Shown one piece after another: positions 57,178 to 64,000 of a stretch of DNA of 64,000 bases; positions within the stretch are counted from its first letter, which is position 1, and every line of letters begins with the position of its first letter. The notes beneath the pieces were generated by a model. That model saw only the letters and a list, made by a program, of their open reading frames with translations, was not told the origin of the DNA and searched no databases. A program made the translations under genes and the position numbers. The stretch covers positions 124,001-188,000 of the forward strand of contig NZ_PPCN01000011.1 in the NCBI RefSeq assembly GCF_002906165.1, written 5' to 3'. The DNA is from Roseibium marinum. GTDB taxonomy: Bacteria; Pseudomonadota; Alphaproteobacteria; Rhizobiales; Stappiaceae.

Positions 57178-57254
57178 CGGGCAGTAGCGCAGCCTGGTAG
57201 CGCACTTCACTGGGGGTGAAGGGGTCGTCGGTTCAAATCCGGCCTGCCCGACCA
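57178..57254 (+). tRNA. tRNA-Pro (anticodon GGG)
   Basis: Acceptor CGGGCAG/CTGCCCG; anticodon stem CTTCA/TGAAG around CTGGGGG (anticodon GGG); T arm GTCGG/CCGGC with TTCAAAT; discriminator A and encoded CCA. A run of six T follows. Base composition drops downstream, so it is a candidate integration point. Confidence 0.97.
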
Positions 57255-57764: not shown

Positions 57765-60700
57765 ATGACCACCCAGATTAAGCATGGAAGGTGCGCCTTG
57801 AGCCAAACACCAAGCGAGAACGAGCCTAACCTCTACGAGCACGGGAAAGCCGCTGTTCGGCTGCTATGGAAGAACTGGAAGGATCGACCGCAAGTTAACG
57901 ACCCCCAAGACCCCGAATTTGCGCGAGGAGCACTGGAAGAGATAATTCGGCTGTTGGTCAATTCCGATGACGTTTACAAGGAAATCCGCGAGTATTCCGA
58001 AGCAGCGGCCGAGCAACTGACCAAAGCTGACCGCACCATCCTTGAGGTCATCCAGAACGCTGATGATCTTGAAGCTTCGACATTGAAGATGTCAGTACGC
58101 CGCAAGGGCAAAGGAGAGCTTCTCGCCGTTCATGACGGCAGACCCGTTGTCGTTACAGATGTCATTGCGATGACTCTCGCCTTTCTTTCGATGAAGCGAG
58201 ACGATGCTAGGTCGAAAGGAAGGTTTGGCATCGGCCTCAAGACACTCAACCAAATCGGTGCTAAGCTAAGCGTACACTGTCCACCCTACCATTTTGCCAT
58301 AGAGAAAGGCGTACTCCACGCGATCGAGCCGGCGAGAGCGATTAAGGGTCTATATCAGCCGTCGGGCCAGCAGACACTCTTAGCCATCGATCTCGATGCA
58401 GAATATGGCCCTGACGATGTTGTAGGTTGGATCCGGCGCTTGGACGCGAGTCACTTGGTCTTTTTAGACCACCTGCGATCACTGTCTCTGATTGATCGCC
58501 GCAAAGGCAGCGCTGAGTGGGAAGCCGAACTCGTGCAAAGCGAGCAGCCTCCGGTTGAAATAGAGATGAAGCCCGGGACTCGCATTACTGCGAATTGCAC
58601 CCTGTTCTCTGAGCCAAGCAAGAAAGGACGAATATGGACCCGTTATTCACTCGAATACCCAGTGCCCCTAAAATACAAGAGAGCCCACAAAGCGACTGCT
58701 AAAGAAACCACGATTTCGGTCGCGATCTCAGAGTCTGCTGAACCTGGCATTCTAGCTGCTGGACTGCCGCTCGACTTCGCAAATACTCTCCCAATCAGCC
58801 TGAACGCTCAATTTGATCCGGACCTTTCGCGCAGAGGCGTTCGAGAGCTGAGGTGGAATGAATGGTTATTCGGCCGTCTAGCTGCACTTGCTTCGGGCGT
58901 GGCCATGCATCGCTTTCAAAGTGACGCTAGGACTGGTTGGCAAGCTGTGCCCTTGCTCGATGAGAATGTTGGGGACGAAGATTGGACGCAAACGCAGATC
59001 GTCGAACTTATCGAAACCGTGCAGGATCGCATAAGGTCGAAACTGCAGTTGGCCATTGATGGCGACACGGTGCGGCTCAGCGACCTTTCCTATCTTTCGA
59101 ACAGCGTGGAGGTCCTTCTGACACTTGAGGATCAGAAAAAGCTCCAACCGGAATTCAGTCCCTTGCCCAACTCACACTGCGACAAGATTGGCAGGTGGCG
59201 ACAGGTACTGGATGAGCTAAAACAAGGGCATCGCTTCACCACACTAGATGCGCTTCGACTTCTGGAATTAGATGATGTTGAGCTTGGCCAGCGTCCCGAA
59301 GGCTGGTTTTTGGCTCTTGCCGATGCGGCGCTTCAAGCTGGATATGATCACGCTCTATCGAACGCGAAATCAGTCCTTGCGGCAGATGGATCGCGGTATT
59401 GCCCAAATGGAGAGATTTTACTCGTCCGTAAGGTAGTGGACGGGAGCATTGCTGAGCGCTTGGGCTTGGAAGTACAACTAGCTGCTGGTTACTTCAGTCC
59501 AACGGTCTCTAAGCTAGTGCAGTCGTGGCTTGAGAAACACTGCGTGACTGACACTTTCCAAGGCGGTGTCCGCATCTTGGATGCACTCTCGCGGAGGAGT
59601 GCAGAAGAACCGCTTTACCTAGACGACAAGGCGCTTCTGACTTTGCGAGACGCGCTTCAGGATACCGACGATGTTCGTCGCCTGTCGCTTGCTGCCACTG
59701 TTGGAAAAGTGATTTGCGTTAATGGGTACGAATTCCGAAAAGGGAAGAAGGTCAACCGCAAGGTTCAACCGGCATTAGCGTATCTGCCAACGTCGATCGC
59801 CAAAGACACGCTTGGATGGGCGGCCGCCGCAAAGTCCACCGAGGAGTTGTTTTGGATAGACAACCGCTATGCTGCGTTGCTTCGCAAAGGCACAAAGGGC
59901 GAGTTGAGCGCGAAGAAGTTCTTTTCCCTTCTTGGTGCCAAAGCAGGCCCTATCCTGGTACGAGCTTCCGATGGCCCGCATATCGAAATCGGAACGGAGA
60001 GACCCGCCACGCAGGTCGACGCACTTCGAAAGATCAGCAGGCCCAACCGGCCGACGCATCTGCGCAATGACTATGTTTCACCCGATCTCGATCGCGTGGT
60101 TGCAAATATCGCCAAGCAAAGGATTGACCCCAATCGGCGCGCAAGAGCCCAAGCTTTGATCGTAACTTTGGATAGAGAATGGGAACACAATCTATCTGAA
60201 CACGCTGAGGCGGGGGCTGAATATTTCTACTACACTTGGCGTCATGTGGGGCACGTACCCGCGACCTGGCTTGCCCGCGCAGCTTCCGAACGATGGCTGA
60301 GCAGCAAATCCAAGCGCAAAGTAGCGCCACGAGAGACCGCAATTGAAACAGCCACCACTCGACTCACTCGCGGCAACAAGCCTTCGCAGTTCGTCCATGA
60401 GCTTAAGGAGTCAGATTCCGCCAGTCCCTTAGTTGCGGCACTTGAAATCAAGGGCACTCCGCCTGCTTCCGAACTCATCGCCGAGCTAGAAGCCCTCAGA
60501 CGCGAACACACTTCAAAGGTTCACCCCGGCGACGTTTACCCACTCTACGCCGCTCTTGCATCCTTAGTCTCTGGCGAGCGTGCTCAAACCGTTGGCGATA
60601 TCGCCGCAGCAGATATCCGAAGTTCATTCGAAAACGCTGGTCTACTGCTCACCAATCAAGGTTGGACATCACCGAGCAAGGTATACCGCGGCAGACCCAT

Positions 60701-62231
60701 ATTTGGCAAACTGCGAATCTTCGTCCAAGAGCCACGAGCATTGTTGCCCCTTTGGCAAATGCTGCAGATTTTCCAGCCAAGCGTCGAAGACTGCATCGGG
60801 GTCTTGCAGGAATTGGGCGACCGAAATGCCACACCTGACGCTGAAGAGAAGAGCATCATTGTCGATGTGCTTAGAAGGTTGGCTGAGTCAGACGGCGGAG
60901 CAAGGAAAAGGGACTCTCGAAAGCTTCTGAGCTTGCCACTTTGGACCTCTCAAGGTTGGCAGACGGCGCGCCCCATCTATGCGGTCACTGATGAAACTTT
61001 GGAGCAATCACTCGGAAAGAAACTTCCGTTGTGGGCCCCTCATTGCGCACTCCAGAGCCTTGGTAGCCTCCCCGAGATGTTGGGCGTTGATATCCTCACT
61101 GATGCCGACTTTTCACTGTCAACCACCACCAAGTTTGAGCCTGCAGACGAATTCACTGAGCTTTGCTTCCGTGGCGCGGTTTCCAGGTTAAGAGCAACGC
61201 TCGCAAAAAAGAGCCAGGAGTTGTGGAACGCGTTCGACTGGAAGGGTTTGGAGAGCGCACAGCTATTTCGGGCTGATGATTTGTCGACCACTGCTAAGAT
61301 CGCCAGCAGAAGGGTTACAGTTTCCCGCGAAGTGCATGTCGAAGGGAAACAGCAAGTCTACTTTGCTAACCCAGATGAGATTGGAGCGCCTGAAGCTGGT
61401 CGAGCTATCCTCGTCCCATTCGTTGATGGAGACTTGCCTGAGATGGTGGACTTTGCGTGGTCATATGCTTGGCACCAAGCGGAGGATGGTTCTCAACTGG
61501 ACGACGAACTCAACTTAGCCTCGGAAGATGCTAAGGACGACGACCCACTCGAGAAATTTGAGGCAGGCGGCAAGAAGGCTACTGGCAACAGGCTGTTTGC
61601 TGGAGGAGCCCTTGGGCACAACAAGAAGGGCGGGAACAAGAATCTGCCCCCTGCCCCGAAGCCTAGGAGACTCAAGGATTTCGATGGTGCGGTGATCGCT
61701 GAAGTAACCGTCGTCCAATCAGATAAAGAGCCAAAGGGCATCAAGCCGAAGAAGCGGCCACTCCTGGTGAACCCCAAGACTCGAAATCCTGCACAGGAGA
61801 CGAAGGCATCTCCTGCCGGTGTAAGGGAATGGACTGAAAAGGAACGCGAGCGTCGGGGATTCGAGTTATTGGCGGCCGCACTGAAACAAATCGACAATAT
61901 CGATCTAGATGATTACAGCGCACTGAAGGGTATTGGAGCTGACTCGATGGACAACTTATCTCGTTACTTCGAGTTGAAAGTGTTCTCGGGCGAAGCCACT
62001 GACGAAGTGAGGTTCGAGCACAGTGAGTTCCAAAGGGCTGTGAAAGCGAAAGGCGACTACTTTCTCGCCGTCGTGTCGGGCCTTGAAGAGGGAAGAACTA
62101 CCGAGATAATGATCTTCGCTGACCCTATTCGTACATTAGATTGGAAACGTATTCCTCAAATTCGGTTGGGTGGAATTCGCTCTGGAGGGAAGTCGGCACT
62201 CAGGATTAGGATTGATACACCTGAGAATTGA
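57765..62231 (+). CDS. Large sacsin-like HATPase protein with C-terminal DUF3883 (NO VEIN-type) domain
   Basis: 1488 residues. The N-terminal GHKL ATPase region (about 85-190) has the N-box EVIQNADD (94-101), VHDGRPVVV (G1-like, 122-130) and GRFGIGLKT (152-160). The middle 1000 residues match nothing I can name. A charged linker (about 1245-1350, GNKNLPPAPKPRRLK) precedes the C-terminal domain (about 1350-1488), in which YFELK (ExK at 1403-1405) and DYFLAVVSGLEEGR match DUF3883, a nuclease-like fold. Plant NO VEIN proteins have the same two ends. ATG 57765 lacks a ribosome site; TTG 57798 has GGAAGG seven bases upstream and may be the true start. Lower GC and different codon choice point to transfer. 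A defence role is inference. Single gene, no partner seen. Confidence 0.85.
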   Translation: MTTQIKHGRCALSQTPSENEPNLYEHGKAAVRLLWKNWKDRPQVNDPQDPEFARGALEEIIRLLVNSDDVYKEIREYSEAAAEQLTKADRTILEVIQNADDLEASTLKMSVRRKGKGELLAVHDGRPVVVTDVIAMTLAFLSMKRDDARSKGRFGIGLKTLNQIGAKLSVHCPPYHFAIEKGVLHAIEPARAIKGLYQPSGQQTLLAIDLDAEYGPDDVVGWIRRLDASHLVFLDHLRSLSLIDRRKGSAEWEAELVQSEQPPVEIEMKPGTRITANCTLFSEPSKKGRIWTRYSLEYPVPLKYKRAHKATAKETTISVAISESAEPGILAAGLPLDFANTLPISLNAQFDPDLSRRGVRELRWNEWLFGRLAALASGVAMHRFQSDARTGWQAVPLLDENVGDEDWTQTQIVELIETVQDRIRSKLQLAIDGDTVRLSDLSYLSNSVEVLLTLEDQKKLQPEFSPLPNSHCDKIGRWRQVLDELKQGHRFTTLDALRLLELDDVELGQRPEGWFLALADAALQAGYDHALSNAKSVLAADGSRYCPNGEILLVRKVVDGSIAERLGLEVQLAAGYFSPTVSKLVQSWLEKHCVTDTFQGGVRILDALSRRSAEEPLYLDDKALLTLRDALQDTDDVRRLSLAATVGKVICVNGYEFRKGKKVNRKVQPALAYLPTSIAKDTLGWAAAAKSTEELFWIDNRYAALLRKGTKGELSAKKFFSLLGAKAGPILVRASDGPHIEIGTERPATQVDALRKISRPNRPTHLRNDYVSPDLDRVVANIAKQRIDPNRRARAQALIVTLDREWEHNLSEHAEAGAEYFYYTWRHVGHVPATWLARAASERWLSSKSKRKVAPRETAIETATTRLTRGNKPSQFVHELKESDSASPLVAALEIKGTPPASELIAELEALRREHTSKVHPGDVYPLYAALASLVSGERAQTVGDIAAADIRSSFENAGLLLTNQGWTSPSKVYRGRPIFGKLRIFVQEPRALLPLWQMLQIFQPSVEDCIGVLQELGDRNATPDAEEKSIIVDVLRRLAESDGGARKRDSRKLLSLPLWTSQGWQTARPIYAVTDETLEQSLGKKLPLWAPHCALQSLGSLPEMLGVDILTDADFSLSTTTKFEPADEFTELCFRGAVSRLRATLAKKSQELWNAFDWKGLESAQLFRADDLSTTAKIASRRVTVSREVHVEGKQQVYFANPDEIGAPEAGRAILVPFVDGDLPEMVDFAWSYAWHQAEDGSQLDDELNLASEDAKDDDPLEKFEAGGKKATGNRLFAGGALGHNKKGGNKNLPPAPKPRRLKDFDGAVIAEVTVVQSDKEPKGIKPKKRPLLVNPKTRNPAQETKASPAGVREWTEKERERRGFELLAAALKQIDNIDLDDYSALKGIGADSMDNLSRYFELKVFSGEATDEVRFEHSEFQRAVKAKGDYFLAVVSGLEEGRTTEIMIFADPIRTLDWKRIPQIRLGGIRSGGKSALRIRIDTPEN

Positions 62232-62438: not shown

Positions 62439-63242
62439 TTAGGCGCGGGTCGACTTCACAATGTCCATGAATTCGCGCGCGCGGACCGGGTCGACCGCAT
62501 TCCAGGTATGCCCGTCAACTTTCAGCGACGAGCCCACGATGCAGCCATCCGCGATCTTGAGCACATCGGCCACTGTTGCATGTTTGACGCCGGTATTGGC
62601 GAGCACGGGCGTCTCGGGCAGCGCTTTCTTAACCGCTTCGAGATCATTCATCTTGGCCGCCTCACCCGTGATCGCGCCGGAAACCAGCACCGCATCGGGG
62701 ATCGAGGAGAAGACAGCTGAACGTGCGCGATCCGGCAATGAACGGGCGTCGAGCGAGTGGGCGAATTCGGCCGATACGTTGTTCAGGAGCACCAGGTCCT
62801 TGCGATCAAGCCGGCGCGCCTCACGCATCGCGCGCCCGGCATTCGGCGTCCAGGGGCCCATATCCGACGCGTAGGTGCCGGTGAAGATCTCGCGCACGAA
62901 AGAGGCGCCAGTGGCCGCGGCCAGCGCAACAGTCGCGTCCGGATCCCAGAGCACGTTGACGCCAAAGGGGTTCTGGATCTTGTCGCGCAGGCGTCCGATC
63001 ACGAAGGCCATCGACGAAGTGGTCGCGACATTGACCTCAAGCTCATAAGGCCGATCGTTCTCGTTGCCGAACATCACCGCGTCGACATCGGCGGCCTGAA
63101 GCGCATCAAGGTCCTTCAGCGCGGCCTGATAGATCCCCTCGACGCCCGCATCGGCATCGTAAAGCGGGGTGCCGGGCATGGGGTTGAGGTGGACCATCGC
63201 GATAACGGGCTTGATGCCCGGGAAAAGCGACCCGAATTTCAT
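62439..63242 (-). CDS. BtpA/SgcQ family TIM-barrel protein
   Basis: 267 residues: VIAMVHLNPMPGTPLYD at the N terminus, AVMFGNENDRPYEL, VNVLWDPDATVALAAATGASFVRE and ANTGVKHATVADVLKIADGCIVGSSLKVDG at the phosphate-binding end. BtpA was linked to photosystem I assembly in cyanobacteria, and SgcQ to a sugar operon in E. coli; the phosphate-loop pattern suggests a sugar-phosphate or nucleoside-related enzyme. AGGAGAG sits just upstream of the ATG. It lies 63 bases downstream of an ABC sugar permease gene and is probably co-transcribed, so a sugar-catabolic role is likely. No terminator is obvious after the stop. Confidence 0.9.
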   Translation of the reverse strand: MKFGSLFPGIKPVIAMVHLNPMPGTPLYDADAGVEGIYQAALKDLDALQAADVDAVMFGNENDRPYELEVNVATTSSMAFVIGRLRDKIQNPFGVNVLWDPDATVALAAATGASFVREIFTGTYASDMGPWTPNAGRAMREARRLDRKDLVLLNNVSAEFAHSLDARSLPDRARSAVFSSIPDAVLVSGAITGEAAKMNDLEAVKKALPETPVLANTGVKHATVADVLKIADGCIVGSSLKVDGHTWNAVDPVRAREFMDIVKSTRA

Positions 63243-63305
63243 GGCAAGTCTCTCCTTTGTCCCCGCCGCGGGCGAGGTTCGATTGAAGCGGAAACGGACG
63301 CGATC

Positions 63306-64000
63306 TCAGTTCTTTCTGCGTTCGAGCAGGAAGAAGAAGACCACCGTGATGAGAAGAACGATCAGGAGCAGGATGAAGGCTGCGGCACTGCCCTCGTTCA
63401 ATGCCAACCCCTGGAAAGCGCGTTTATAGGCAAAAAAGGACAGCAGCTCGGTCGAGATGCCGGGGCCGCCCTTGGTCAGGATGTAGATCAGGTCATAGGT
63501 GCGGAATTCGTTGATCAGCTGGATCACCACCGCGATCATCGCGACCGGACGCAAAAGCGGCAGGGTGATATACCAGAACTGCTGCATCGGACTCGCGCCA
63601 TCTACCTCGGCCGCCTCGTAAGGTTCGCGTGGCAGCGAGGCGAGACCCGCCGAGAGCAGCAGGATCACGAATGAAGTCTGCTGCCAGATGTCGATGAAGA
63701 TCATCGTCTTGAGCGCCAGACCCGAGTTGCCCAGCCAGTCCACCATCGGCAGGCCGAGCCCTGCCAGCGTCTGGTTGACGATCCCCAGATTGGGCTGCAA
63801 CAGCATCCGCCAGATCAACGCAACAGCGACCGGCGACATCGCCATCGGCAGGGTAAGCACTGCGAAATAGACGCCACGCATCGCGATCACCTGGCGCAGC
63901 ATGAGCGCGATCCCCAGCCCGGCAATGAACTCACCCGTCACCGTGGCAACCGAATAGCGCAGGGTAATCCCGAGGGAGTTCCAGAACAGCGGCTCGGACA
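63306..64000 (-). CDS. Carbohydrate ABC-transporter permease (MalF/UgpA type), truncated by the window
   Basis: The frame is open to the window edge, so the 5' end lies outside. About 231 residues are visible. Five hydrophobic helices are seen, plus the permease EAA loop (EAAEVDGASPMQQFWYITLP) that contacts the ATPase; FRTYDLIYILTKGGPG follows, typical of binding-protein-dependent sugar permeases. The C terminus ends LLERRKN. It is co-directional with the BtpA/SgcQ gene. The binding protein, second permease and ATPase are presumably outside the window. The sugar is unknown. Confidence 0.93.
   Translation of the reverse strand, partial: SEPLFWNSLGITLRYSVATVTGEFIAGLGIALMLRQVIAMRGVYFAVLTLPMAMSPVAVALIWRMLLQPNLGIVNQTLAGLGLPMVDWLGNSGLALKTMIFIDIWQQTSFVILLLSAGLASLPREPYEAAEVDGASPMQQFWYITLPLLRPVAMIAVVIQLINEFRTYDLIYILTKGGPGISTELLSFFAYKRAFQGLALNEGSAAAFILLLIVLLITVVFFFLLERRKN

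Follow-up and report, generated by a model that had tools for sequence, protein, structure and literature searches.

A solitary Tiamat-family gene beside tRNA-Pro in Roseibium marinum, with a sacsin-type ATPase end and a nuclease-like end

Within a stretch of 64,000 nucleotides (nt) of the Roseibium marinum genome, contig NZ_PPCN01000011.1 (hereafter the window), lies an open reading frame (ORF) that we assign with high confidence, from its PADLOC profile match, to the TmtA/Tiamat family, with a role in defence. The best explanation of the gene taken whole, and a fairly probable one, is that of a solitary member of the Tiamat family, gained laterally at a tRNA-Pro site and acting as an ATP-gated nuclease. 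Computation shows the family match, the intact motifs and the predicted folds, as well as an accessory distribution and homologue contexts rich in defence genes.

The search used the 5027 models of the PADLOC profile set. The best match is TmtA (PDLC03968) at 1411 bits, extending over residues 19–1483 of 1488 and profile positions 5–1482 of 1486. It is followed by six further TmtA models falling from 69 to 13 bits, and the lowest matches, at 11–13 bits, are to LmuA, one more TmtA model and NsnC. The gene is solitary, as the definition of Tiamat asks, having a tRNA gene upstream and a convergent gene downstream. It differs from Tiamat in scoring 69 bits or less against the other TmtA models, and the nearest other protein found in the database shares 63% identity. 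We regard it as a genuine, divergent and probably functional member of the family, and so as a known kind of system. We take TmtA to be the protein of Tiamat, and Tiamat to be a one-gene system; Millman et al. reportedly named it as such in 2022. An earlier interpretation of this DNA made from its letters (the sequence-only reading) had held that no standard system contains this gene alone, a view that Tiamat contradicts. Two articles count Tiamat among the defence systems whose mechanism is unknown (PMC10482375, PMC12926258), and a third reports that it is one of the commonest occupants of a defence hotspot in Pseudomonas islands (PMC12629846). No title on the mechanism of Tiamat was found in the literature searched, outside which lie most subscription journals and bioRxiv.

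The sequence-only reading described a protein of 1488 residues with a GHKL N terminus and a nuclease-like C terminus bearing ExK, and both ends are borne out by conservation and by the predicted structure. Motif residues were counted over 36 aligned sequences (Table 1), none of which lacks N98 or K1405. The NCBIfam model NF047352 (sacsin N-terminal ATP-binding-like) matches at 61 bits, above its cut-off of 50, and a domain of sacsin is the top fold match. Like the Hsp90-like SR1 of sacsin, the protein has a Bergerat-type ATPase fold and, after it, a middle part in which an arginine is conserved; it differs in being bacterial and in its PD-(D/E)xK-like C terminus. Sacsin also has the H-(D/N)-G motif. 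In the predicted structure R356 is flanked by a strand and a long helix, an arrangement that PMC9880540 describes for the catalytic-loop arginine of sacsin; we infer that R356 is the equivalent of Hsp90 R380 and sacsin R474. A Pfam scan of the protein up to an E-value of 1 revealed no J or HEPN domain, and no relative of solved structure was found by sequence up to the same value.

At the other end, the predicted structure has the core fold with a D...ExK site by which the PD-(D/E)xK superfamily is recognized. NOV_C is the later name of DUF3883. Judged by the NOV_C profile and the alignment, the domain shares its C-terminal position and E-x-K site with that of plant NO VEIN. DUF3883 is described as a novel restriction endonuclease domain in PMC3710099. 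Identity to the PD-(D/E)xK nucleases Hjc, DpnI, NhoI and SPARDA is 7–14%, and unlike them the present domain is joined to an ATPase and a large middle region. The sequence-only reading left about 1000 middle residues unassigned; the figure is nearer 900, because an Hsp90-middle-domain-like part follows the ATPase. No convincing fold match was listed for the remaining middle region, which was not folded on its own, and comparison of 66 segment pairs gave no internal repeats (best probability 29%, next 2%).

How might these parts act together? We suggest that the Hsp90/sacsin-type ATPase with its middle domain would bind ATP and close, while the long helix-hairpin middle region would recognize something made or exposed by infecting phage. 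ATP-driven closure would bring in or unmask the C-terminal PD-(D/E)xK domain, and this would cut DNA, either that of the phage or all DNA in an abortive response. The ATPase and nuclease activities, their coupling, the trigger and the target are what we infer, and in this exact wording the mechanism is offered as a plausible if tentative one. Its main rival is a MORC-like DNA clamp, in which ATP-driven dimer closure would trap or compact invading phage or plasmid DNA and the C-terminal domain would bind rather than cut. Yet sacsin SR1 and Hsp90 both rank above MORC as fold matches, and the invariance of the nuclease-type residues in all 36 sequences argues against a clamp because a mere DNA-binding domain would not need them. 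We consider the clamp unlikely.

How widely is the gene distributed? In a survey of 201 genomes (its own and 200 relatives) three match: its own, one of the same family at 28% identity, and one of the same order over the C-terminal part only. There is no match in any of the 44 congeners in the set, as judged from shared genome labels. With three matches in 201 genomes a core housekeeping gene is rejected; a core gene in a syntenic housekeeping position, which the sequence-only reading named as the outcome that would refute it, was looked for and not found. Nor do we regard the gene as phage-borne, as none of 50,697 phage records matches tmtA. Six of 72,556 plasmid records do so, and in two the match covers 80% or more of the query.

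All 45 genomes of the genus match the tRNA-Pro flank, several of them with the gene part and the tRNA part matching separately. The downstream flank is matched in 12 of the 45, and in four of those the match spans only 28–37 nt. Base-by-base comparison covered six of 19 fetched congener loci, and in all six homology ends 0–4 nt past the end of tRNA-Pro. It resumes 21.5 kilobases (kb) past the tRNA end relative to congener G035 and 25.9 kb relative to G017, in which the site holds inserts of 3.4 and 4.3 kb, respectively. The other four show no resumption in the stretch examined, save for second copies of the tRNA-Pro 3′ end in G011 and G034 (48 and 65 nt), the match in G034 extending 13 nt beyond the tRNA. 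Given the break at the tRNA end and the later resumption, tmtA is therefore the first gene in a segment of about 21.5 kb that is specific to the lineage. Lateral gain at the tRNA-Pro site is a probable element of the explanation as a whole. The sequence-only reading was right in calling the gene low in GC and placing it after a tRNA gene: GC is 53.5% in the ORF and 59.0% in the window, no value as low occurs among 533 overlapping intervals of equal length upstream, and tRNA-Pro(GGG) ends 510 nt before the ATG. An integrase island with a duplicated tRNA end is rejected, since no second tRNA 3′ end sharing the last 12 nt was found in the contig's 60 kb from C11:181001 on, and Pfam found no integrase among ten segment ORFs. 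The tRNA-Pro(GGG) site, beside polysaccharide genes, varies in content among the congeners compared (loci L058–L077).

Relatives of the gene were not found by a single-sequence search of genome contigs; an alignment-based search found at least 80 loci in species-representative genomes. The 36 covering about 70% or more of the query were used; the 44 left out comprise a single fragment and 43 weak matches, most of them confined to the ATPase. Every ORF of 150 amino acids (aa) or more within 6 kb, 286 in all, was scanned with PADLOC at E ≤ 1e-20, and in three batches these matched 128 (112 ORFs), 98 (112) and 26 (62) models. For the control a fixed region was taken from each of 20 of these genomes, and 112 of the 182 ORFs there were scanned; they matched nine, including mad3, PDC-M37B, DolB, GajB, PDC-S68 and a RecD model. 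These counts are of models and not genes, and related models share proteins; they therefore give a strong trend but no rate. Among the matches listed near homologues are PglZ, BrxHI, SspC/F/G/H, MzaC/E, AbiEi, Dsr1/2, JukA/B and LmuB, together with type I, IIG and IV restriction enzymes and type I and II methyltransferases. The closest fetched relative (49%, Mesorhizobium) adjoins MzaC, MzaD and MzaE. Around the homologues there is a trend towards the enrichment that the sequence-only reading proposed to look for. In 19 congeners, 127 ORFs downstream of tRNA-Pro matched 10 models (PycC and mad3 in three ORFs each; AbiU, ThsA, DrmD, Avs2 and others in one each). This is about the control level, and does not support the site as a defence hotspot of the genus.

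The gene's own segment was covered in part, by Pfam and PADLOC scans of ten ORFs each, nine of them common to both. Pfam identified a sugar ABC transporter, BtpA, DeoR-type and LuxR-type regulators, an FGGY kinase, an SDR and unknowns. PADLOC gave generic matches only, with mad3 (108 bits) and mad8 in the ABC-transporter ATPase, and no Mza or Mokosh partner genes; a WYL model scores 30 bits in the DeoR-type regulator.

Several observations weigh against a laterally gained, ATP-gated defence nuclease. Pfam HATPase_c_3 (PF13589) reaches 15.9 bits, below its cut-off of 25, and NOV_C/DUF3883 (PF13020) 12.7 bits, below 22.1. The nuclease fold match comes from a model with a predicted template modelling score of 0.54, and Foldseek alone gave no match for the C-terminal half at E 0.001 or less. 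To these are added the lack of an integrase among the ten ORFs, and the lack of a clear defence neighbour among the segment ORFs scanned, whose mad3 model was also matched in the control. This last point, with the sacsin domain as top fold match, would suit a sacsin-like chaperone of protein quality control without a defence role, which is nevertheless very improbable given the patchy distribution, the homologue surroundings rich in defence genes relative to the control, and the conserved nuclease-type site. The DNA-related chaperone outside defence that the sequence-only reading had offered as an alternative is likewise less likely. Its proposal of a single-gene anti-phage system is supported by the TmtA match, the patchy distribution, the variable tRNA site and the defence-rich surroundings of the homologues; taken whole, the sequence-only interpretation is supported in part.

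In six of the 36 loci tmtA is preceded, at a distance of 0.3–4.7 kb, by a codirectional gene of 1044–1157 aa, and four of the six share a further upstream gene, WYL-type in the two scanned. The large partner has RNase_H_2 and AAA_11/12 domains (two scanned). On an Aminobacter plasmid the order is WYL, ‘TM0106 family RecB-like putative nuclease’, DUF4258, PD-(D/E)XK nuclease family protein, ATP-binding protein and tmtA, with a tyrosine recombinase nearby. Three genes of this cassette are 94–99% identical to a Mesorhizobium locus, which may be read as recent transfer between genera. The near-identical stretches are L083:5629-13441 and L180:7617-16461; the Mesorhizobium tmtA frame of the pair stops early (1161 aa), and a tblastn match continues past it. 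TM0106-type helicase-nucleases stand upstream of tmtA in several alphaproteobacterial genera (L084:5246-9613, L085:5270-9673, L107:5227-9637, L080:3551-7989, L083:2158-5292, L090:6109-9582, L180:2834-7280). Helicase-nuclease and tmtA, often with a WYL-type regulator, form a possible multi-gene version of Tiamat; the literature searched yielded nothing on the WYL/TM0106 pairing.

A single near-full-length helicase match occurs in eight of 31 tmtA-carrying genomes, a ninth having two pieces. With carriers sorted by record title, full-length copies are found in 6 of 14 alphaproteobacterial ones versus 8 of 385 genomes of the class (Fisher p about 1e-6), a descriptive figure in that the pattern was first noticed in the same loci, the query came from one of them, kinship was ignored and the groups were drawn differently; suggested by those loci, the comparison is therefore not independent. 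The R. marinum genome studied here has no full-length helicase copy. Could its gene be the remnant of a multi-gene system whose partners, the WYL regulator and TM0106-type RecB-like helicase-nuclease, are missing here? The six loci with the partner, the four with the WYL-type gene, the related Aminobacter cassette and the helicase comparison are in its favour. Against this, 30 of 36 loci have no shared partner family within the fetched flanks (some short), the window ORF is intact with all catalytic-type residues, and Tiamat is scored as one gene. Such a remnant is distinctly unlikely. It is conceivable, though doubtful, that alphaproteobacterial TmtA serves as effector in a mobile cassette (WYL, TM0106-type helicase-nuclease, at times a UvrD-like helicase) of which solitary copies would be self-sufficient offshoots. 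TmtA would then be a defence enzyme whose nuclease is gated by a full ATPase cycle of the sacsin/Hsp90 type, the middle-domain arginine included.

Residues are numbered here from the ATG; alignment numbering is 11 lower. An alternative TTG at 57798 would give 1477 codons, the form in the protein database, and has GGAAGG just 5′ to it as read by eye. In one alignment the column of M1 of this form is almost invariant; in another it is not. Translation may start at this TTG instead of the ATG. The sequence-only reading saw no metabolic neighbour, but a BtpA-family gene follows directly and then a sugar ABC transporter, though the BtpA gene is convergent with tmtA and they therefore share no operon. 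Both (window 62439-64000) belong to the same lineage-specific segment as tmtA. In G033 and G035 an 85–86% identical BtpA/transporter stretch lies on a different contig from the tRNA-Pro match.

Table 1. Positions in the window of the tmtA-family ORF, its parts and the adjacent genes; fractions are counts over the aligned sequences.
Feature	Position	Strand	Remarks
tRNA-Pro (GGG)	57178..57254	+	ARAGORN; 3′ end forms the near boundary of the variable segment
tmtA-family ORF	57765..62231	+	1488 codons, ATG start, no internal stop
GHKL (Hsp90/sacsin-type) ATPase domain	57966..58532	+	residues about 68-256
N box E94-x-x-Q-N98-A-D-D101	58044..58067	+	E, Q, N, A, D, D each 36/36
G1-box equivalent H123-(D/N)-G125	58131..58139	+	H, G 36/36; middle D 19, N 16, G 1
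G2 box G152-R-F-G-I-G157	58218..58235	+	all six residues 36/36
Hsp90 middle-domain-like part	58533..59045	+	residues about 257-427
R356, candidate catalytic-loop arginine	58830..58832	+	36/36
Middle region, alternating helices and beta-hairpins	59046..61493	+	predicted structure
Low-confidence, probably flexible linker	61494..61658	+	predicted local distance difference test (pLDDT) under 50, model residues 493-547
PD-(D/E)xK nuclease-like C-terminal domain (NOV_C/DUF3883-like)	61821..62210	+	
Nuclease-type site E1362...G1391-x-D1393...E1403-x-K1405	61848..61979	+	E, G, D, E, K each 36/36
BtpA-family gene	62439..63242	-	convergent with tmtA ORF

For the genome of R. marinum the analysis adds one probable defence gene and nothing more. 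For the family, the repeated occurrence of a helicase-nuclease beside tmtA suggests that Tiamat comprises more than one gene at some loci, and the residue map of E94, N98, R356, E1362, D1393, E1403 and K1405 makes the model of an ATP-gated nuclease directly testable.
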